A DNA stretch of 64,000 bases from Arcticibacter tournemirensis (lineage in GTDB: Bacteria > Bacteroidota > Bacteroidia > Sphingobacteriales > Sphingobacteriaceae): assembly GCF_006716645.1 (NCBI RefSeq), contig NZ_VFPL01000001.1:1054001-1118000 (forward strand), read 5' to 3'. Shown in pieces: positions 23,867 to 33,772 of this stretch (positions within the stretch are counted from its first letter, which is position 1; each line of letters starts with the position of its first letter). Both the position numbers and the translations under genes were made by a program. The notes under the pieces were generated by a model that had not been told where the DNA came from, searched no databases, and was given only the letters and a program-made list of their open reading frames with translations.

Positions 23867-26800
23867 ATGTATAAAAAATTTACTGAACTGGTGTTCAGGA
23901 GTAGGCCTGGCATATTATCCAATATACTCTTAAAAATGAAACTAACCATTGTTATAGTATTGGCGGTTTTCCTGCAACTCGAGGCCTCAACAACGAGTGC
24001 GCAGAAAATAAGCTTGAAGGTTGAGAATGCGCCTTTAAAGAAAGTGGTGGCCTTGATAAGACAACAAACTGACTTTGATTTTCTTTACAATAATATCTCG
24101 CTGAAGGACTTGAAGCCTATAACGCTCAACGTTATTAATGAAGATCTGAGCAGCGTTTTAGAACAGTGTTTTGCCGGGCAGCCACTTAAATATACCATTA
24201 ATCGCAAAACGATACTTATAACCGGCAAGCCTGCAGCCCAGCCCGGCGACAGGAAAATAACAGGCCGCATTACCGATTCTAAGGGGCAGTCTTTGCCTGG
24301 AGCGAGTGTAACCGTTGTAGGAACGAACGTAAGTGCAACTACTGATGCCGATGGTCGTTATGAAATCCGTGCTTCCGACAAAGACGTTGTTTTAAGATTT
24401 ACGTTCATTGGTTTTAATACCGTAGAGGTAGAAGCTAAAGCCGGAAGCAAGAATATCTTCGACGTCGTTCTTGAGGAGAAGGTGAACATGTTAAATGAAC
24501 TGGTTGTAGTTGGATATGGCGAACAGCGGAAGATCAGTAATATAGGTTCACAATCCAGCCTGAAAATGAAGGATATAAAAACGCCTTCAGCCAGTTTATC
24601 TACGGTATTAGCGGGACGGCTTTCAGGAGTGGTTGCCGTTCAGCGTACAGGGGAACCAGGCAAGGACGGCGCTGATATCTGGATCCGGGGGATTTCTACT
24701 CCCAATTCGTCAAGCCCCCTGGTTCTTGTAGACGGGGTTGAGCGAGGCTTTAACGATATAGACCCTGAAGATATTGAATCTTTAACCGTACTTAAGGACG
24801 CGTCTGCCACTGCTGTATATGGCGTGAGAGGTGCCAACGGCGTTATCCTTATAAAAACGAAACCAGGAAAAATCGGCAAGCCAACGGTTAGTACCGACTA
24901 CTATGAATCAATTACGAGTTTTACCAAAAGAGTTGACCTCTCGAATGGTATTACCTATATGAACGCCGTGAATGAAGCCCTGGCAAACAGCGGCCAGCAA
25001 CCTAAATATTCGCAGTCGGTGGTGAACAACACGCTTAATAATGTCGATCCTTACTTATACCCAAATGTAAGCTGGCTCGACGAGATATTTAACGACTGGG
25101 GACATAACCGCCGTGCGAATGTGAATGTAAGAGGTGGTAGCGCTAATGCAAATTATTATGCATCGGTTAGCTACTACAATGAAACGGGCCTGATGAAGAC
25201 CGATAATATAGAGAACTATAACTCGAAGATTAACTTCAATCGTTATAACTTCACGACCAACCTTAATTTAAAGGTAACGGAGTCGACCTCTGTAGATATT
25301 GGAGCCCAGGGATATCTTGGAGAAGGAAACTATCCTGCGATATCTTCAGCTGACATCTATTCTGCGGCGATGGAAATTACGCCGGTAGACTATCCCAAGA
25401 TGTTCTACGTGAACGGCAAAGCATATGTGCCTGGGCTTAACCCAAATGGGGGCTACCGGAATCCTTATGCTGATGCTACCCGGAGAGGCTTCAGCAATCA
25501 GACGCGAAACCAGATCTATTCTAACCTGAGGGTAACGCAGGACTTAGGCGCCCTGACTCCCGGGTTGAAGCTTTCGGGTATGTTTGCTTACGACGTGTAT
25601 AATAATGTCAGCATCAATCAGGGTAAAAGAGAATCTACCTTTTATTTCGCCAACCGCGACGTTCCTTACGATCTTGACAATCAACCTATATTAGTCCAGA
25701 CCTATGCCGGCTCAGACGTTTTAGGATTCAGCCAGCGATCCGACGATAATAATAAAAAGACTTATCTCGAGGCTTCCCTTACATACGACAGATCCTTTGG
25801 CAAACATCGCGTTGGAGCGCTGGCGCTGTTTAATGAACAGAGCAGGCTTCTTTATCCGGTCGGGTCGCTCGAATCGTCTATCCCATACAGGATGATGGGA
25901 GTTGCCGGACGCGCTACTTACTCATGGGACGACCGTTATTTTGCCGAGTTTAATATCGGATACAATGGATCCGAGAACTTCGCTCCAAACAAACGCTTCG
26001 GAACGTTCCCCGCGTTTGGCATAGGATGGGTTCCTTCAAATGAAAAATTCTGGGAACCGCTGAAGAACGTAGTGTCATTCCTGAAAATCCGCTATACCGA
26101 TGGTAAGATAGGTAACAGCAATGTATCCGACCGACGCTTTATGTTCCTTGAGCAAATGGAGTATAATGGTGATTTCGGATATAACTGGGGAAGCAATAAC
26201 GGTAAAACCAGCGGTGTTAAGGTAAATAATAACGCTGTAAATATAGGTTGGGAAGAATCGCGCAAGCAGGACCTGGGCATTGACCTGAAGTTGATGAGAG
26301 ACGAACTGTCGATCATTTTCGACTTGTTTAAAGAACATCGCACCGACATTTTATTGAAAAGAAATGAATCCATCCCTTCGTTTTTGGGATATATGTCTGA
26401 TCCTTACGGCAACGTAGGCGTGGTGGATAATAAGGGCTTTGACTCGTCGCTGGAGTATAACAAACGCATCAGTGCGAACTGGTCGGTATCCGTTAGAGGA
26501 AACTTCACCTTTAATAAAGATAAATGGGTCGACAGCGACCAGCCGGATCAGCGTTATCCCTGGATGAATAAGGCCGGGAGTAATTTAAATGCCCGGAGGG
26601 GATATATTGCTGACGGTCTTTATTCGCAGGAAGAAGTTGATGATATCAGAAGGTGGGAATCTCTGAATTCGTCAGACAGGGCTGATATTCTGAGGCCATT
26701 TCCGGTGCAATTTGCCGAAGTAAAAGCAGGAGATATTAAATATAAAGATCTGAACGGCGACGGGAGGATAGATGCATACGACCAGTCGTATATCGGCAGG

Positions 26801-27307
26801 GGCGATGTTCCTAAAATGATCTATGGCTTCGGGTTTAATACCACCTATAAGCAATTCTCGCTGGGACTGTTGTTTCAGGGGGTAAAGGATGCCGACAGGA
26901 TGTTGAATGGTAATAGCATTAATCCCTTCAGAGGCGATGGTGGTGGCGGTAACCTGTTCTCAAATATTGACGACCGTTGGACGATCGATAACCCCGCTCA
27001 GGATGTATTCTATCCACGTCTGGCTTACGGTTCTGACCAGACCAGTAACATCAATAATTTCCAGACAAGTACCTGGTGGCAGAAAGACGTTAGTTTCTTA
27101 AGATTAAAGACAATGCAGATCTCCTATAATCTGCCTCAAAGATGGATTAAGCGGGCTAATCTTAAAAATGCTTCCGTTTATATGATGGGCACCAATCTCT
27201 TCACTTTAAGTAAATTCAAGTTGTGGGATCCGGAACTGAACACGAATAACGGGACAAAATATCCCAACATCTCAACTTACTCAATGGGAGTAAACTTCTC
27301 TTTTTAA
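23867..27307 (+). CDS. SusC-type TonB-dependent receptor with STN domain
   Basis: A 1146-residue outer-membrane transporter. Order: export signal (LTIVIVLAVFLQLEAST), STN signalling domain (about 45-125; LKVENAPLKKVVALIRQQ), CarboxypepD_reg-like domain (GRITDSKGQSLPGASVTVVG), plug with the SusC signature region (VVVGYGEQRK, VLVDGVERGFNDIDPEDIES), then the beta barrel ending in SMGVNFSF. With SusD it imports oligosaccharides using TonB energy. The STN domain marks it as a transducing receptor, which fits the sigma/FecR pair upstream. SusD follows after 11 bp. Confidence 0.95.
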   Translation: MYKKFTELVFRSRPGILSNILLKMKLTIVIVLAVFLQLEASTTSAQKISLKVENAPLKKVVALIRQQTDFDFLYNNISLKDLKPITLNVINEDLSSVLEQCFAGQPLKYTINRKTILITGKPAAQPGDRKITGRITDSKGQSLPGASVTVVGTNVSATTDADGRYEIRASDKDVVLRFTFIGFNTVEVEAKAGSKNIFDVVLEEKVNMLNELVVVGYGEQRKISNIGSQSSLKMKDIKTPSASLSTVLAGRLSGVVAVQRTGEPGKDGADIWIRGISTPNSSSPLVLVDGVERGFNDIDPEDIESLTVLKDASATAVYGVRGANGVILIKTKPGKIGKPTVSTDYYESITSFTKRVDLSNGITYMNAVNEALANSGQQPKYSQSVVNNTLNNVDPYLYPNVSWLDEIFNDWGHNRRANVNVRGGSANANYYASVSYYNETGLMKTDNIENYNSKINFNRYNFTTNLNLKVTESTSVDIGAQGYLGEGNYPAISSADIYSAAMEITPVDYPKMFYVNGKAYVPGLNPNGGYRNPYADATRRGFSNQTRNQIYSNLRVTQDLGALTPGLKLSGMFAYDVYNNVSINQGKRESTFYFANRDVPYDLDNQPILVQTYAGSDVLGFSQRSDDNNKKTYLEASLTYDRSFGKHRVGALALFNEQSRLLYPVGSLESSIPYRMMGVAGRATYSWDDRYFAEFNIGYNGSENFAPNKRFGTFPAFGIGWVPSNEKFWEPLKNVVSFLKIRYTDGKIGNSNVSDRRFMFLEQMEYNGDFGYNWGSNNGKTSGVKVNNNAVNIGWEESRKQDLGIDLKLMRDELSIIFDLFKEHRTDILLKRNESIPSFLGYMSDPYGNVGVVDNKGFDSSLEYNKRISANWSVSVRGNFTFNKDKWVDSDQPDQRYPWMNKAGSNLNARRGYIADGLYSQEEVDDIRRWESLNSSDRADILRPFPVQFAEVKAGDIKYKDLNGDGRIDAYDQSYIGRGDVPKMIYGFGFNTTYKQFSLGLLFQGVKDADRMLNGNSINPFRGDGGGGNLFSNIDDRWTIDNPAQDVFYPRLAYGSDQTSNINNFQTSTWWQKDVSFLRLKTMQISYNLPQRWIKRANLKNASVYMMGTNLFTLSKFKLWDPELNTNNGTKYPNISTYSMGVNFSF

Positions 27308-27318
27308 ATCAGATCATT

Positions 27319-29232
27319 ATGAAAAAAATATATATAGTACTGGGGATGCTTTCTTTAATTCTGAGTACTTCCTGTAAAAAATATCTCGATCAGGTTCCTA
27401 CAGACAGGCTGTCGATGGAGAAGATCTTTGAAACCAGGGAATCGACAAGACAGTACCTGGCCAGCGTTTACACGTATATACCCGACGAATATAACCAGAG
27501 GCAGTTGCAGGAGGGGGAAATCTTTAAGACTTATGGCCCCTGGACCGCCGCAAGTGACGAGGCTGAATATACATGGACTTTCGTTCTGAGCCATCTATGG
27601 AATAATAATACCATTACAGCTACCGAAGGCTTCATTGGAAGGCGCTGGAAAAGCTGGTATACCGGCATTCATACTGCAACAAAATTTATAACCTACGCGC
27701 CCTCGTGCCCGGAGCTGTCTGAGACAACAAAAAATCAATGGATTGCTGAAGCTCGTGCGCTTCGGGCTATTTATTATTTCTATCTTGTTAGAGCCTACGG
27801 ACCTGTCCCTGTTATAGGTGATGTTATTTCGCAGGATACTCCGCTGGGTGAGCTTCAGATCCCGAGAAGCACAAGCGACGAATGTTTTGATTACATCATA
27901 TCGGAACTTAGACGTGCTGTGAATGAAGGCCTGGTAGAGCATGTTTCGCAGGAAGGCAATCCGAGCAGTGAAGGATACGGAAGGATTGACCGCACTGTAG
28001 CGCGCGCTTTCATTATTGAAGCGATGATGTTCCGTGCAAGCCCCTTGTTCAATGGTGGTAATCAGCAGTATGCAGGCCTCACTAACCCGGATGGAACGAA
28101 ACTGTTTCCAACGCTATCTGACGCTGATAAAAAAGCAAGATGGAAGGCAGCTGCCGATGAAGCAGCCAGCTTTATCGCTGATTACGTTCCTCGCTTTTAT
28201 GATTTACAACGTGAATATACTAATGGCGTGCTCGACCCTTATTTGTCATACCGCGCAGCTACCCGTGGAGCGTATACTAAATTATCGAGCTATACCGAGC
28301 TGATATTTTACAGGATAGGAACTTCTTCCGGAACCATGCAGTACGACCGGACTCCCAATCATAAAGGTGTTAACAACGACTATAAAGGAGGAGGTGCATT
28401 AGGTGCCACTCAGGAAATGGTTGATGCCTACTTTATGGCCAACGGTCAGCTGCCGGTAACAGGTTACGAATCCGATGGTAAAACTCCGGTTATTAACGCT
28501 GCATCAGGTTATTCAGAAACAGGCAAAATAAGCGCTGATTACAAGGATCCCGTATCAGGCAGAGTACTGGCACCCTCAAATACCAGCAGGATGTATTACA
28601 ACAGGGAACCCCGCTTCTATGCCGGCATTACATTCTCTGGTCAGAAGTGGCTGTATGATAAAGATGGAGCGATCTATACAGATATGACCTACTCCGGAAA
28701 TGCCGGTAAACTTCAGGGCGTGAATGACTTTTCAAAAACAGGATATGTGGTAAGAAAATCAGCTCCCGAAGGGCCGAGAGGAACAGAAGACCGTGTTTGT
28801 ATCTTGTTGCGTTTAGCTCAGGTATACCTGAATTACGTGGAGGCATTGAACGAATCTGATCCTTCTAATCCCGACATCCTCAAATACCTTAATCTGATAA
28901 GAGAAAGAGCGGGTATCCCCAAGTACGGAACAGGTGCCAATGCGCTGCCGGTTCCTGCTGCTGGACAGGAGATGGCTAAGGCGATAATGGCCGAAAGACG
29001 GGTGGAACTGGCTTTCGAAAATAGTCGTTTCTTCGACGTCAGACGATGGGGTACTGCCGAGCAGAATCAAAACAAGGCGATCTATGGGATGAACGTTGAA
29101 GCCGATGGTGATAACTTCTATAAGAGAACGAAAGTAGAGGACCGTGTATTTGACAAAAGGCAATACTTCTTCCCTATACCGCAAAGCGAGATAGATATAG
29201 ATAAGGCCCTGGTTCAAAATCCCGGGTATTGA
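27319..29232 (+). CDS. SusD/RagB-family glycan-binding lipoprotein
   Basis: A 637-residue surface lipoprotein with lipobox LSTSC near residue 20, followed by KKYLDQVPTDRLSMEKIF, typical of SusD N-termini. TPR-like helices include EARALRAIYYFYLVRAYGPVPV, and the C-terminus has RRVELAFENSRFFDVRRWG and the closing FPIPQSEIDID. It caps the SusC barrel and binds the incoming glycan. The length is somewhat above the common range of about 500-600, as in many large SusD homologues. Confidence 0.95.
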   Translation: MKKIYIVLGMLSLILSTSCKKYLDQVPTDRLSMEKIFETRESTRQYLASVYTYIPDEYNQRQLQEGEIFKTYGPWTAASDEAEYTWTFVLSHLWNNNTITATEGFIGRRWKSWYTGIHTATKFITYAPSCPELSETTKNQWIAEARALRAIYYFYLVRAYGPVPVIGDVISQDTPLGELQIPRSTSDECFDYIISELRRAVNEGLVEHVSQEGNPSSEGYGRIDRTVARAFIIEAMMFRASPLFNGGNQQYAGLTNPDGTKLFPTLSDADKKARWKAAADEAASFIADYVPRFYDLQREYTNGVLDPYLSYRAATRGAYTKLSSYTELIFYRIGTSSGTMQYDRTPNHKGVNNDYKGGGALGATQEMVDAYFMANGQLPVTGYESDGKTPVINAASGYSETGKISADYKDPVSGRVLAPSNTSRMYYNREPRFYAGITFSGQKWLYDKDGAIYTDMTYSGNAGKLQGVNDFSKTGYVVRKSAPEGPRGTEDRVCILLRLAQVYLNYVEALNESDPSNPDILKYLNLIRERAGIPKYGTGANALPVPAAGQEMAKAIMAERRVELAFENSRFFDVRRWGTAEQNQNKAIYGMNVEADGDNFYKRTKVEDRVFDKRQYFFPIPQSEIDIDKALVQNPGY

Positions 29233-29233
29233 G

Positions 29234-29275
29234 AGTAGTAAGTTATAAGTGATAAGTAGTAAGTTATAAGTAATT
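29234..29275 (+). repeat. Degenerate heptanucleotide array, locus B
   Basis: Six 7-nt units (agtagta, agttata, agtgata, agtagta, agttata, agtaatt) beginning 2 nt after the SusD stop codon. Only a weak inverted partner is visible downstream (around 29294-29300). Confidence 0.8.
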
Positions 29276-29318
29276 GCTTAACAGCATAGCTGACTTACAA
29301 AATAACTCAAGAATCAAA

Positions 29319-30494
29319 ATGAACAAATATAAGAACCCGATGATAAGCTTTTTTTATTGTCTTACAGTGGTTGTGATGTCGTTCTTTTCCAGCTGTAACG
29401 AGGCTGATGATGACAAACCATATACACCTGATTACGACGTTGTGCCTCAATATACCGCAGCAGATGTGGATACTGCATTTAATGCCTTCAACCGTCACCT
29501 GTTTGATCCGACAAGGAAACTCTATTACAGGGACTCCGGAAAGCCCACGGCCGTTGGCGCCATCTGGACCCAGGCGGTTTACTGGGATATGGCAATGAAT
29601 GCTTACAAAAGAACGAAAAGCCCTCAGCATCGCCAGCTGATAGAAGACATATACACCGGCTGCGGCAACTACTATGCTAACTACGACTGGAATACCAAGC
29701 CCCAGGTATGGTTTATCTACGACGATATTATGTGGTGGGTTATTTCTATGGCAAGAGCCTATGAGATAACCGGTGAGCAGAAATATCTCGATCATTCTAT
29801 CTCCGGATTCCACAGGGTATGGTATGGAGCACCCGGTATAGACAATGGATCTTACGACGCTGTAAACGGCGGTATGTTATGGGACTGGCATGATGCAGCT
29901 AAAGGGAAGATGTCGTGCATAAATTATCCTACCGTAATTGCAGCGATGACCTTATATAACATCACCAAAAATGCAGATTATCTGAGCAAGGCTAAAGAAA
30001 TATACCAATGGTCGCATGATAACCTATTTGATAGCAGGACAGGCCGTGTGGCCGATTCCAAGCATGGCGGAAACTCCCCCAACTGGACAACGCATACCTA
30101 CAATCAGGCGACCTGCATAGGCGCTGCTGTAATGCTATACAAGGAGACCGGCGAGCAACGGTATCTGGATGATGCAGTCCTTACAGCAGATTATACTAAA
30201 AATACCATGTCGGGTAAGCTCCAGATACTCCCATATGAGGGTGGTGAAGAGCAGGGAATATACCATGCTATCCTCGGGCAATATATGATCAGGCTCATTG
30301 AAGATTGTAACAAGCCCGAATACCTGCCCTGGCTGCGCCGAAGTATCAATTACGGCTGGAAGAACAGGGATGCTGTACGTAAACTAACTACGAAGAATTT
30401 TATAGCGCCTACCCCTTCGAACGAACCAATTTCATGCTATGATGCCAGTGGCGTTGTGGCGTTAATGCAGGTTTGCCCTCCTGAATCAAAGTAA
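29319..30494 (+). CDS. GH76 endo-alpha-1,6-mannanase, lipoprotein
   Basis: A 391-residue surface lipoprotein (lipobox FFSSC near residue 25). The catalytic Asp pair of GH76 is Asp135-Asp136 in YDDIMWWVISMARAYEITG, and GGMLWDWHD plus CINYPTVIAAMTLYNIT fit the family barrel. GH76 enzymes cut the alpha-1,6-mannan backbone of yeast and fungal cell-wall mannan. A reading from 29274 would add 15 residues upstream of the signal peptide, so the ATG at 29319 is chosen. It is the only catabolic enzyme of this locus, so side-chain mannosidases must lie elsewhere. Confidence 0.92.
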   Translation: MNKYKNPMISFFYCLTVVVMSFFSSCNEADDDKPYTPDYDVVPQYTAADVDTAFNAFNRHLFDPTRKLYYRDSGKPTAVGAIWTQAVYWDMAMNAYKRTKSPQHRQLIEDIYTGCGNYYANYDWNTKPQVWFIYDDIMWWVISMARAYEITGEQKYLDHSISGFHRVWYGAPGIDNGSYDAVNGGMLWDWHDAAKGKMSCINYPTVIAAMTLYNITKNADYLSKAKEIYQWSHDNLFDSRTGRVADSKHGGNSPNWTTHTYNQATCIGAAVMLYKETGEQRYLDDAVLTADYTKNTMSGKLQILPYEGGEEQGIYHAILGQYMIRLIEDCNKPEYLPWLRRSINYGWKNRDAVRKLTTKNFIAPTPSNEPISCYDASGVVALMQVCPPESK

Positions 30495-30528
30495 ATGTTC
30501 TGCAATTCAATGAACTTAAAATATTGTT

Positions 30529-31662
30529 ATGAATAGTAAATTCAAAAATATATCAGCATTACTGCCCCTGTCGTATATGTTAGTGCTGGCAGTCCTGCTT
30601 GGCTTAGCGGGCTGCTCCAAGGATTCCAAAAAAGAGGAAACCCGTCCAACCGACCCGAATGTCGAAAAACTGGATAGTTATGTGAAGAATCTTACAGCAC
30701 TCCGTGACACCTCTGTTTACGGTACCTACACGGGAATGTACCCCCAGGAAAGTAAGGAGATTTTGACACCCGTTATAAGTGAAGCGAATAAACTGATCCT
30801 GCTGATAAAGTATGGAGACACCCCGCCTTCTCATGCAGATATCGAGCAGTGTTACGTTAAGCTTGAAAAAGCTGGCACTGATTTTAAGGCTTCCAAACGA
30901 ACCGAAGATGCGGTGATCCCCGCAGAACTCTTTGTTAATGGCATGAACGGGGGATATATCGACTTTGGCAGTAGTCCTGAGTATTCGGTCTTCGGAAACC
31001 CGGGGAGTCAGCAGTTTACGGTAGAGACCTGGTTTAAATTTACGAACATCAACGGCTTTGGTGCAGCGATTACCACGTTTTACGAAAATGGCGGAAGCCG
31101 TGTAAGAAAAGGTTGGATGATTAACCATTTTGATAATCAAAGACTGAGAATGTCGTATTCAATGAGTGCCTATGATAATATGCTCGAACCGGGAGCCGAT
31201 CTTCCGATGTCGGGTTTTGGCAATACCTGGGTACATTTTGCTGCGGTGTATAATGATAATGGGTTCAACGGCGAAAGAGATGGCAATGGCAATCTCATAG
31301 TGATTAAAGTTTACAGAAACGGTGAGCTGGTGAGTACGGCCACCAAAAGGAATTCGAGTGATAAATATGTGGGTAATGATCTGCCGATATCTATGACTGC
31401 ATTCCTGGAAATCAGATCAGATGGAAGTACTACCCGGAAAATCGCCGGCTACATAAAGGATTTCCACATTTGGAAGACAGCAAAAACAGCAGTGGAGATC
31501 AATCAACTGAAGAATAAAGAAATAATAGTTAGTGGAACAGAAACGGATCTCGCATGTGGCTGGGATTTCAGCAAGACAGTGAGGGATGACAACAATATCC
31601 GTGACCTTACCGGCCGGCATTCTGCGCGGCTGATCGGTGAGCACAGGTGGGATTTGAAATAG
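30529..31662 (+). CDS. LamG/concanavalin-like lipoprotein, probable surface glycan-binding protein
   Basis: A 377-residue lipoprotein (lipobox LAGCS). Residues 45-125 are a helical region resembling the DUF4972 segment found in similar proteins. Residues from about 140 form a LamG-type beta sandwich (FTVETWFKFTNINGFGAAI, GNTWVHFAAVYNDNG, IKVYRNGELVS, AGYIKDFHIWKTAKTAVEINQL). No hydrolase residues are evident. Position after GH76 suggests it holds mannan at the cell surface. It closes the locus and is followed by a hairpin at 31683-31713. Confidence 0.82.
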   Translation: MNSKFKNISALLPLSYMLVLAVLLGLAGCSKDSKKEETRPTDPNVEKLDSYVKNLTALRDTSVYGTYTGMYPQESKEILTPVISEANKLILLIKYGDTPPSHADIEQCYVKLEKAGTDFKASKRTEDAVIPAELFVNGMNGGYIDFGSSPEYSVFGNPGSQQFTVETWFKFTNINGFGAAITTFYENGGSRVRKGWMINHFDNQRLRMSYSMSAYDNMLEPGADLPMSGFGNTWVHFAAVYNDNGFNGERDGNGNLIVIKVYRNGELVSTATKRNSSDKYVGNDLPISMTAFLEIRSDGSTTRKIAGYIKDFHIWKTAKTAVEINQLKNKEIIVSGTETDLACGWDFSKTVRDDNNIRDLTGRHSARLIGEHRWDLK

Positions 31663-31713: not shown

Positions 31714-31788
31714 TTCTTCGTTTTATTAGCATCCTATAGCGGGAATATTCTACCAGATACTCGACGCGCACGTGCTATCTCTATGCTG

Positions 31789-31843
31789 CCCCATGGTATC
31801 CCCATGGTATCCCCATGCTATCCCCTGATCCTCCCCTGATTAT
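31789..31843 (+). repeat. Tandem 11-nt repeat, left array
   Basis: Five contiguous 11-nt units: ccccatggtat twice, ccccatgctat, cccctgatcct, cccctgattat. The last unit is repeated exactly, inverted, at 31960-31970. Confidence 0.85.
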
Positions 31844-31873
31844 GAATATAGCCTCAGTTCAGCTAATGATTCC

Positions 31874-31918
31874 CTACATTGAGTCTACCTTTTGAGCAAA
31901 AAGGTAGACTCAATGTAG
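31874..31918. repeat. Perfect 20-bp palindrome
   Basis: Arms 31874-31893 and 31899-31918 are exact reverse complements around a 5-nt loop (gagca). The flanking 11-nt units begin 30 nt away on each side, so the hairpin is the centre of a larger symmetric structure. There is no U-tract on either strand beyond the arms. Confidence 0.9.
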
Positions 31919-31948
31919 AACGAGCGGCCTTTTTCTGATGCCACATAG

Positions 31949-31970
31949 ATAGCCAGGGGATAATCAGGGG
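31949..31970 (-). repeat. Tandem 11-nt repeat, right inverted array
   Basis: Two contiguous units which on the minus strand read cccctgattat and cccctggctat, the same unit family as 31789-31843 in the opposite orientation. Confidence 0.85.
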
Positions 31971-32211
31971 CAGCGCCTTCTCAGGCAAGGGAAGAACTGT
32001 TCTGCAGGGGTGCAGAGACAGTGGATGTGTCGCAAGGCAAAGGCAATCAGCCGCTTAGTTTAAACTGATTATAAATTACATTTTCCTGTTTCATCTTTTT
32101 GCAGTTCTTGTCAACTTTACTTTTACATCAGCTATAGCCGCCGACCTCCGCATCGTGTTACCGTCCTAACCCTGCCCTGTGCCAGCTGCTGATGGCTGAA
32201 GCAATTTAAAA

Positions 32212-32218
32212 AAGGAGG
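32212..32218 (+). promoter_or_regulatory. Unusually strong Shine-Dalgarno
   Basis: AAGGAGG, 6 nt before the ATG at 32225. This is a near-perfect anti-SD match, in a genome where most starts in this window have no such motif. It fixes the start of the following gene. Confidence 0.85.
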
Positions 32219-32224
32219 AAATAT

Positions 32225-33310
32225 ATGGCAGTAATCGATAGTAAAGGCGGCATCCATGGCACAGCAGGCCCGGTGGTATACCGCAGCTACCGGGGGATGA
32301 ACATTGTTCAGAGCCGTCCCCGGCGTTTCAAACAAACCCAGGCCAGCCAGGAGGCTGCCGGAGAATTCGGACTGATCAGTCAGGCATCCAAAGTGCTCAG
32401 GGAGGCCTTCCGTCCCTTTTATCATCACTTTTACGATGGAGGGATGGTCAACCGCATGACGGCAGCGGTTTCGCGCAGCATCCGGGGCAGCCGCAGCCGG
32501 GAGCGTGGTGACCGCGACCTGCACGACGGTGAACTGTCGTTCCTGGAGGGACTGGAGTTCAATGAAGACAGCAAGTTTTCGCAGGTGCTGCAGGTCAAAC
32601 CACAGGTAAGGCGCAATGAGAAGGGACAGGTAAGCATCAGCCTGCCGGAGATTGATCCCCGCAGGGACTTTGTTACCCCCTTTAAGGGACATTATAAGGT
32701 TACGGGCTACCGGCTCAGCTTTGTACTGGTGGCTTTTAACTTCAGGGAAGAGTTCTATGAGTATATCGGGGAGAAGAAGATCAGTATGGAAAGCAGTGGC
32801 CTGAATGCAGCCCGCGAGCTGGTATTTGATCAGGAAGTACCCAGGGGCTGTTTACTGCTGGTGCTGGGCATGCAGGAATGCATGGCAGCGAACATATACA
32901 AATACGAACAGGAGCCGCTCAACAGCAGGGAGTTTAACCCGGTAAGTCTGATCGCAGCCTTCCAGTCGGAAGATGAAGCAGAGGAAGGATACGGGGAGAG
33001 CAGGGCCCTGGCGAACTTAGAAGAGGCAACCGCATCAGGCATCCCTCCCCGCACTCAAATCATGGCAGGATACCGGGGGAACAGCGTCCTTGCCAGCAGG
33101 CGTTCCTGGCGGGAGAAGCAGATCAGCAAGGGAGAGCCGCTCATACGAGGAAAGGGTCCGGGACTGTCGGATCCGGAGCGACGGCAACTGCAGCAGGAGA
33201 TAGAGCAAAGGATGAGGGAGAAACTGGATCAGCTAAAGCAGCAGGCCACCATCGCTACAGAAGAGGGCCAGGATACCAGCACGCTGATGGGGAAAAGGGT
33301 AAAGTTTTAG
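32225..33310 (+). CDS. Hypothetical protein, GC-rich gene
   Basis: A 361-residue protein of unknown function. The N-terminus has a glycine-rich pattern (GGIHGTAGPVVYRSYRG, then IVQSRPRR) loosely like the start of DUF6266-type Bacteroidota proteins; this likeness is only by eye. The middle is beta-rich, and the C-terminus is a charged helix (EIEQRMREKLDQLKQQA). There is no signal peptide or membrane span. Codons favour G/C-ending triplets far more than the neighbours do, and the start has a strong Shine-Dalgarno. It sits between a polysaccharide locus and a toxin-antitoxin scar. Transfer or unusual expression demands could explain the composition. Confidence 0.75.
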   Translation: MAVIDSKGGIHGTAGPVVYRSYRGMNIVQSRPRRFKQTQASQEAAGEFGLISQASKVLREAFRPFYHHFYDGGMVNRMTAAVSRSIRGSRSRERGDRDLHDGELSFLEGLEFNEDSKFSQVLQVKPQVRRNEKGQVSISLPEIDPRRDFVTPFKGHYKVTGYRLSFVLVAFNFREEFYEYIGEKKISMESSGLNAARELVFDQEVPRGCLLLVLGMQECMAANIYKYEQEPLNSREFNPVSLIAAFQSEDEAEEGYGESRALANLEEATASGIPPRTQIMAGYRGNSVLASRRSWREKQISKGEPLIRGKGPGLSDPERRQLQQEIEQRMREKLDQLKQQATIATEEGQDTSTLMGKRVKF

Positions 33311-33415: not shown

Positions 33416-33523
33416 TGGAAAGAATTGTATTGGAGGTGGATGACCGTACAGCTAAAGCATGGTGCAGCGATAGACAAAGCTATTTTGTCGGGAAAAATTG
33501 CTGTGTCTTCACAAACCCTTGAA
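33416..33523 (+). pseudogene. Antitoxin N-terminal remnant
   Basis: The ATG frame reads MERIVLEVDDRTAKAW for 16 residues, which resembles the start of small antitoxins paired with PIN toxins. It then runs out of frame through toxin sequence to a stop after 35 codons. The join lies near 33460, where sequence belonging to the toxin body begins in another frame. An internal deletion that removed most of the antitoxin and the toxin start explains this best. Confidence 0.65.
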
Positions 33524-33772
33524 GAATTGACGTTAGTTATTTTCCGGAGAAAATTCGATAAATATTTTCTAAACGAAATTGAACGGCTGGAGATCGTAGA
33601 TAAGATTGCACAGAACAGCGTTCTTTGTGACCCCGAGCTCAAGATTTTTGACTGTCGTGATCCAAAAGACAACATGATCCTAGAGCTTGCTGTTGCCGCT
33701 AATGCTTCGTGCATCATCTCAGGAGATGAGGATTTGTTAACGTTGCATCCTTTCAGAGGTATTCCTGAATAG
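33425..33772 (+). pseudogene. Truncated PIN-domain toxin remnant
   Basis: The body of a PIN-family (COG1569-like) ribonuclease toxin: AAIDKAILSGKIAVSSQTLEEL, DCRDPKDNMILELAVAANA and SGDEDLL carry three of the usual acidic active-site regions. The normal start with the first catalytic Asp (the DTN motif) is missing; before residue 14 the frame reads unrelated sequence from the antitoxin gene, opened only by a TTG. It is therefore probably inactive. Confidence 0.7.

Follow-up and report, generated by a model that had tools for sequence, protein, structure and literature searches.

A phased palindromic array and its DUF6266-related gene in Arcticibacter tournemirensis: anatomy of a candidate dispersed single-gene unit

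The stretch of Arcticibacter tournemirensis DNA analyzed here (64,000 nt, hereafter the window) holds a set of 11-nt units facing one another across a long perfect hairpin, upstream of a gene for a 361-residue protein. What is this structure for, and how is it tied to the gene? The initial annotation offered three answers: a non-autonomous mobile element, a protein-binding array, or a structured RNA. The array and gene sit between a polysaccharide utilization locus (23867-31662), made up of a SusC/SusD-like pair, a putative glycosidase, and a DUF4972 plus LamG lipoprotein, and a plsX-fabH-accBC cluster. Just downstream of them is a PIN-domain ORF (33425-33772) preceded by an out-of-frame ATGGAAAGAATTGTATTGGAGGTGGATGAC that resembles the beginning of a small antitoxin, and the two are possibly what is left of a broken toxin-antitoxin pair.

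Anatomy of the array and its gene

Five direct 11-nt units occupy positions 31789-31843 of the forward strand, in the order CCCCATGGTAT, CCCCATGGTAT, CCCCATGCTAT, CCCCTGATCCT, and CCCCTGATTAT. After a 30-nt spacer (31844-31873) comes a perfect 20-bp hairpin (31874-31918), whose arms (31874-31893 and 31899-31918) enclose the loop GAGCA. A second 30-nt spacer (31919-31948) leads to two inverted units (31949-31970), which are written ATAGCCAGGGG and ATAATCAGGGG on the forward strand and read as CCCCTGGCTAT and CCCCTGATTAT on the reverse strand. Direct reading and a repeat finder thus bear out the units, spacers, and hairpin of the initial annotation, and the spacer match that it pointed to is indeed mirrored, with GCCTCAG at 31851-31857 and CTGATGC (complement GCATCAG) at 31935-31941. 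Its statement that the innermost units are identical on both sides is wrong: CCCCTGATTAT (31833-31843) has its identical partner in the outer right unit (31960-31970), and the innermost right unit, CCCCTGGCTAT, matches it at 9 of 11 positions. The reported lack of a terminator holds, with no T-tract present and none found in a terminator search.

The 11-nt phasing is strong. The array matches itself at 25 of 28 positions at this offset, while a self-match of at least 21/28 is reached in 0/270 control windows at any offset from 6 to 20. Region 31780-31975 also folds well, with z = -8.4 as RNA and -8.3 as DNA, and none of 200 shuffles does as well. At the center of the hairpin is the dyad core AGTCTACCTTTT-N5-AAAAGGTAGACT (31882-31910). 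On the forward strand, the array is followed by a leader (31971-32224) that is kept in sister copies and carries AAGGAGG before the ATG, as well as a promoter-like CAACTTTACTTT (~32112-32123, assigned by eye) which places the hairpin about 200 nt upstream of it. The 361-residue gene follows (32225-33310, forward strand).

A dispersed unit and its ends

Far from being unique, as the initial annotation allowed it might be, the array region is represented seven times in the 5.66-Mb genome, with identities of 71-100%. The linkage to the 361-residue gene is complete in this genome: a copy of that gene begins ~310-330 nt downstream of each of the seven module copies, and one of these genes (L005/L035) breaks off after 42 shared residues. 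At the protein level the search yields 20 paralogues, 34-100% identical and spread over both replicons, a count which takes in the cut copy. Selection among the copies is purifying (dN/dS 0.13-0.38), which indicates that the protein is needed.

In each of the six sister copies there are no more than about two left units and a single right unit, so the extra CCCCATGSTAT units are an expansion peculiar to the window copy. The two CCCCATGGTAT units (31789-31810, forward strand) fall outside the homology with the sister copies, which begins at 31811-31816. This puts the left end of the dispersed unit at the forward-strand stretch formed by CCCCATGCTAT, CCCCTGATCCT, and CCCCTGATTAT (31811-31843). 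In the copy alignment, left ends fall at -409 to -414 relative to the ATG. Pairwise alignments place them 65-95 nt before the hairpin, with identity rising from 0.31-0.43 outside to 0.89-1.00 inside, and with a somewhat ragged boundary in the copies of group C.

The right end lies inside the stop codon (33308-33310, forward strand), where copy homology stops. In group A, identity falls from 0.86 in the final 30 nt of the ORF to 0.25 in the 30 nt that follow. Across copies, the corresponding values are 0.77-1.00 and 0.20-0.33. In pairwise alignments, groups A, A2, and D and copy L033 of group C have this end within 1-4 nt of where the stop codon begins, and a Desertivirga pair has it near the stop. 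Stop codons differ within group A (TAG, TGA, TAA), so the shared sequence stops at their first T. Homology runs further in a few cases, for 105 nt past the stop in L031/L032 and for up to 430 nt in four copies of group B. In two of the latter (L025 and L027), the shared downstream stretch holds a hairpin, CTTTTTTCTTTG-N4-CAAAGAAAAAAG, then tandem repeats of ~70 nt. The mosaic appearance of the B copies suggests gene conversion.

The target-site duplications that the initial annotation proposed looking for are not seen: inspection by eye of the copies with definable ends gives neither consistent duplications nor convincing terminal inverted repeats. Two candidates, AAGGGTG at L017 and CTAAA at L030, were set aside as chance short repeats absent from other copies. 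There is no hairpin at the right end, and in three copies the folding of the final 100 nt does not beat that of shuffled sequence (z +0.6 to +1.2).

Dispersal of array and gene together as a unit of 1.2-1.5 kb is well supported from sequence comparison, because a near-identical pair coexists with empty loci in relatives. L029 and L030 share 1512 nt at 99% identity within unrelated flanks, and a second near-identical dispersed pair (L072/L087; 99%, ~1.2 kb) is found in Desertivirga. The gene neighboring L029 is present in five relatives of the same genus, with no family gene within 1.5 kb. Both Desertivirga loci are without the unit in Pedobacter sp. SYSU D00535, where the two flanks stand close together. 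These are comparisons between species, in which the relatives' flanks can be aligned mainly in coding sequence, intergenic DNA having diverged too far to place the exact empty site; the boundaries given above come from comparing paralogues. An A. svalbardensis locus was rejected as an empty site, being a remnant from which the gene has been deleted. As for the non-autonomous element of the initial annotation, mobility is supported for the array plus the gene, but in the window's genome the array is not non-autonomous.

At least 14 copies of the gene are found in four of five same-genus genomes and 10 in the fifth (87% complete), and 56 of 151 genomes of the taxonomic family have at least one, with Arcticibacter, Pararcticibacter, Desertivirga, Pedobacter, and Parapedobacter among the carriers. 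The unit was not found in the collections of phages, plasmids, and viral contigs searched.

Conserved dyads, solo arrays, and DUF6266 relatives

A dyad with an AGTCC-like core lies upstream of 20/20 paralogues. The hairpin around it is specific to each subfamily: GTGAGTCTACCTTTT in A, AGCCCGCCTTT in B, AAAGTCCGTGTTTT in C, AGAGTCCACG in D, and GTGAGTGCACCTTT in E. The strict pattern AGTCYRNNTTTN{3,12}AAANNYRGACT occurs at 11 sites in 5.66 Mb, all 11 of them upstream of family genes, and the reversed control gives 0. In a wider set of 66 genes, 43 have an upstream dyad with at least 9/12 pairs, and most of the remaining genes retain a similarly spaced AGTCC...GGACT with a weaker or absent inner stem; most Arcticibacter copies pair at the AGTCC/GGACT ends only. 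These counts come from selecting the best pair and are no test by themselves. Independent support for conservation comes from the genome-wide pattern, from hairpin scores of 10-29 at many loci (shuffles reach no more than 8, flank controls no more than 13), and from compensatory changes. The latter are seen between orthologous solo arrays of A. eurypsychrophilus and A. svalbardensis, where for example TGATAAGTCCATG/CATGGACTTATCA becomes TGTTGAGTCCGTG/CACGGACTCAACA.

Such solo arrays, which stand without the gene, occur in relatives, and none of the strict-pattern type is found in the window's genome. The looser pattern AGTCCN{17,21}GGACTYW is found 53, 37, and 45 times in genomes G001, G003, and G005, versus ~20, 12, and 9 in controls; in the window's genome it does not exceed its control (9 versus 21). 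For ~12 of 34 dyad regions sampled in two Arcticibacter genomes, a family gene or the start of one lies within 2 kb; for ~21, none does. The solo arrays are palindromic far beyond the core, at 24-35 of 46 flanking positions, and lie between divergent (8), tandem (6), or convergent (1) gene pairs. Two of them were examined in A. svalbardensis, and one is conserved over the whole locus, the other over the left flank and dyad, suggesting that they do not move often. Gene remnants of 42, 47, and ~26 codons show that arrays can lose their gene.

The 361-residue protein has no match above threshold in Pfam, NCBIfam, PHROGs, or PADLOC, and no sequence match in the PDB. Comparison of profiles relates it to DUF6266 (PF19781) with 83% probability and an E-value of 8.5e-6. 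The four members tested do not reach the Pfam cut-off for DUF6266 and have no Pfam match up to E = 1. Judged by these comparisons, the window family is a related superfamily of DUF6266 and not a member. The two share a distant sequence relation (an N-terminal G-x-SGK-x-G-type motif) and upstream iteron arrays of 10-11 nt, while the window protein is longer, is without a Pfam match, and is preceded by the AGTCC dyad. Conserved residues of the window family include R59, D71, R77, R97, D98, H100, D101, F112, and N113. A structure model built from 54 sequences (pLDDT 85) predicts an N-terminal beta-hairpin region, two helices, a beta-sandwich, and C-terminal helices. An enzyme fold was rejected, since the model gave weak Ig-like or adhesin-like beta-sandwich matches alone, and no nuclease, recombinase, or transposase is among the best Foldseek matches. 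HxH is absent from the window protein, and no such conserved motif is found in the 54 homologues. Classification as a phage, plasmid, or defense gene was likewise rejected, with no match in PHROGs, PADLOC, or the phage, plasmid, and viral collections.

DUF6266 itself goes unmentioned in the literature searched. The window's genome has 13 canonical DUF6266 genes. Over 21 such genes from several Bacteroidota genomes, the upstream region matches itself at no fewer than 21/28 positions at offset 10 or 11 in 10 cases, against 0 of the 270 control windows, and an eleventh does so at offset 20. Six near-perfect tandem 11-nt units of the type CTAACTATATR precede L164, CCATATCAAGG units make a palindrome with 27-bp arms upstream of L171, and direct plus inverted GTCAG units precede L153. 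Within the window family, an offset of 11 is seen at the window locus (L016), L034, L096, and L101; among its 66 loci, L029 and L030 have an unrelated offset of 7. In the window's genome, canonical DUF6266 genes (L144-L156) are frequently arranged in tandem pairs, the two genes separated by a terminator-like hairpin and a single array standing before the pair. A DUF6266 gene with an identical score and the same flanks is found near one end of both contigs (G000:C1:1375-1959 and C2:456175-456759), so these contigs may share an end or overlap.

Competing readings of the array

Of the three options first offered, the protein-binding array is best supported by the anatomy: phased 11-nt units, the dyad AGTCC...GGACT, and its compensatory changes. 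The phased array, with its fixed place at the left end and its subfamily-specific sequence, is best read as the binding site of the protein itself. At roughly even confidence, we infer that the structure serves a dispersed unit of 1.2-1.5 kb with a single gene as its left-end recognition array, bound by the unit's own protein and involved in the unit's spread. The unit would comprise the array (11-nt units, central AGTCC dyad, inverted units), a leader with promoter, one gene, and a right end at the stop. The encoded protein, or an oligomer of it, would bind its phased array, and array and protein together would promote the spread of the unit. The catalytic step may fall to a host recombinase that the protein brings in, or to the protein itself, acting as a nuclease of unknown fold. 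Arrays lacking a gene would be deletion derivatives or non-autonomous copies, and array binding perhaps serves self-regulation as well. A bolder version, which we hold only tentatively, makes the DUF6266-like protein a transposase or recombinase of unknown class that recognizes its own phased palindromic array and inserts a single-gene unit ending at the stop.

Known systems offer partial parallels. In replicon iteron arrays and phased operators, such as 11-nt repeats of the pho-box type, direct repeats are spaced one helical turn apart. The window array has the same spacing, but is palindromic around a long hairpin, gene-subfamily-specific in sequence, chromosomal, and dispersed. In a first rival, the array is an operator. 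DUF6266-like proteins or a host regulator would control the gene by binding the phased units ahead of its promoter, while the copies would have arisen by ordinary duplication and gene conversion, and the solos would control other genes. The position upstream of promoter-like sequence and the 11-nt phasing fit this, as do the mosaic look of the B copies and the solo arrays, mostly set between divergent or tandem genes and kept between species with compensatory changes. Yet unrelated flanks and copies that end at the stop codon are unlike segmental duplication, for some sampled solo dyads the nearest long ORF is several hundred nt away, and no helix-turn-helix or other DNA-binding family was found. 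We regard such a regulatory array as the main rival, at fairly low probability.

REP/RAYT systems (REPtrons, REPINs) also combine dispersed extragenic palindromes with a gene family and have solos in some genomes, and RAYTs are thought to move REPs. REP palindromes carry a GTAG or CGTC tetranucleotide at one end (PMC3733652). The window system is without an HUH/Tyr protein and without that tag, has 11-nt phased arrays, and its palindromes are gene-linked only in the window's genome. The window stem does begin with CTAC and end with GTAG, but other subfamilies do not, and no tag is common to them. As to the many solo palindromes expected of a REP/RAYT system, solos are common in the two Arcticibacter genomes and none of this type occurs in the window's genome. 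Because the HUH/Tyr and tag tests failed, we do not file the system as REP/RAYT. IS200/IS605 elements resemble it in having a hairpin inside the left end and no target duplication seen, and differ in that the window unit has neither a right-end hairpin nor TnpA and ends at a stop codon. Nor does it look like a DDE-type insertion sequence, with no transposase family match and no consistent inverted ends or duplication (ends judged by eye). In a second rival, a host single-strand transposase of the HUH/Y1 type would recognize the hairpin and mobilize the unit in trans, with the 361-residue protein as a passenger. A left-end hairpin, no target duplication seen, and gene-less palindromes in relatives are features common to IS200/IS605 and REP systems (PMC6006769, PMC3733652). 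Against it stand the right end without a hairpin and the absence of a conserved GTAG/CGTC tag; moreover, a protein superfamily always found beside arrays in the window's genome and under purifying selection would be an odd passenger, and we rate the idea as quite improbable. The structured RNA, a leader hairpin or small RNA controlling gene expression, has the strong fold and covarying stem in its favor but is the least probable reading, as DNA folding yields the same z, the hairpin precedes the promoter-like sequence by about 200 nt, pairing of the inner stem is not constant, the 11-nt direct repeats are left unexplained, and no Rfam family scores above the gathering threshold.

The recognition array of a dispersed single-gene unit is thus the reading we prefer. 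The gene and its phased palindromic array appear to form an undescribed, probably mobile system across Bacteroidota, new relative to the libraries and literature searched. These DUF6266 relatives reach at least 10 copies in every same-genus genome searched, and the link to the array gives a concrete hypothesis for the family, in which every protein would have a DNA address of its own. Should the protein move the unit, this would be a new type of mobile element; and if the transposase version is true, the DUF6266 genes found across Bacteroidota would make up a large class of mobile genes that has been overlooked, every one with an array sequence of its own. If the protein only binds, the family would still offer a large set of protein/DNA-site pairs for studying how recognition diverges.
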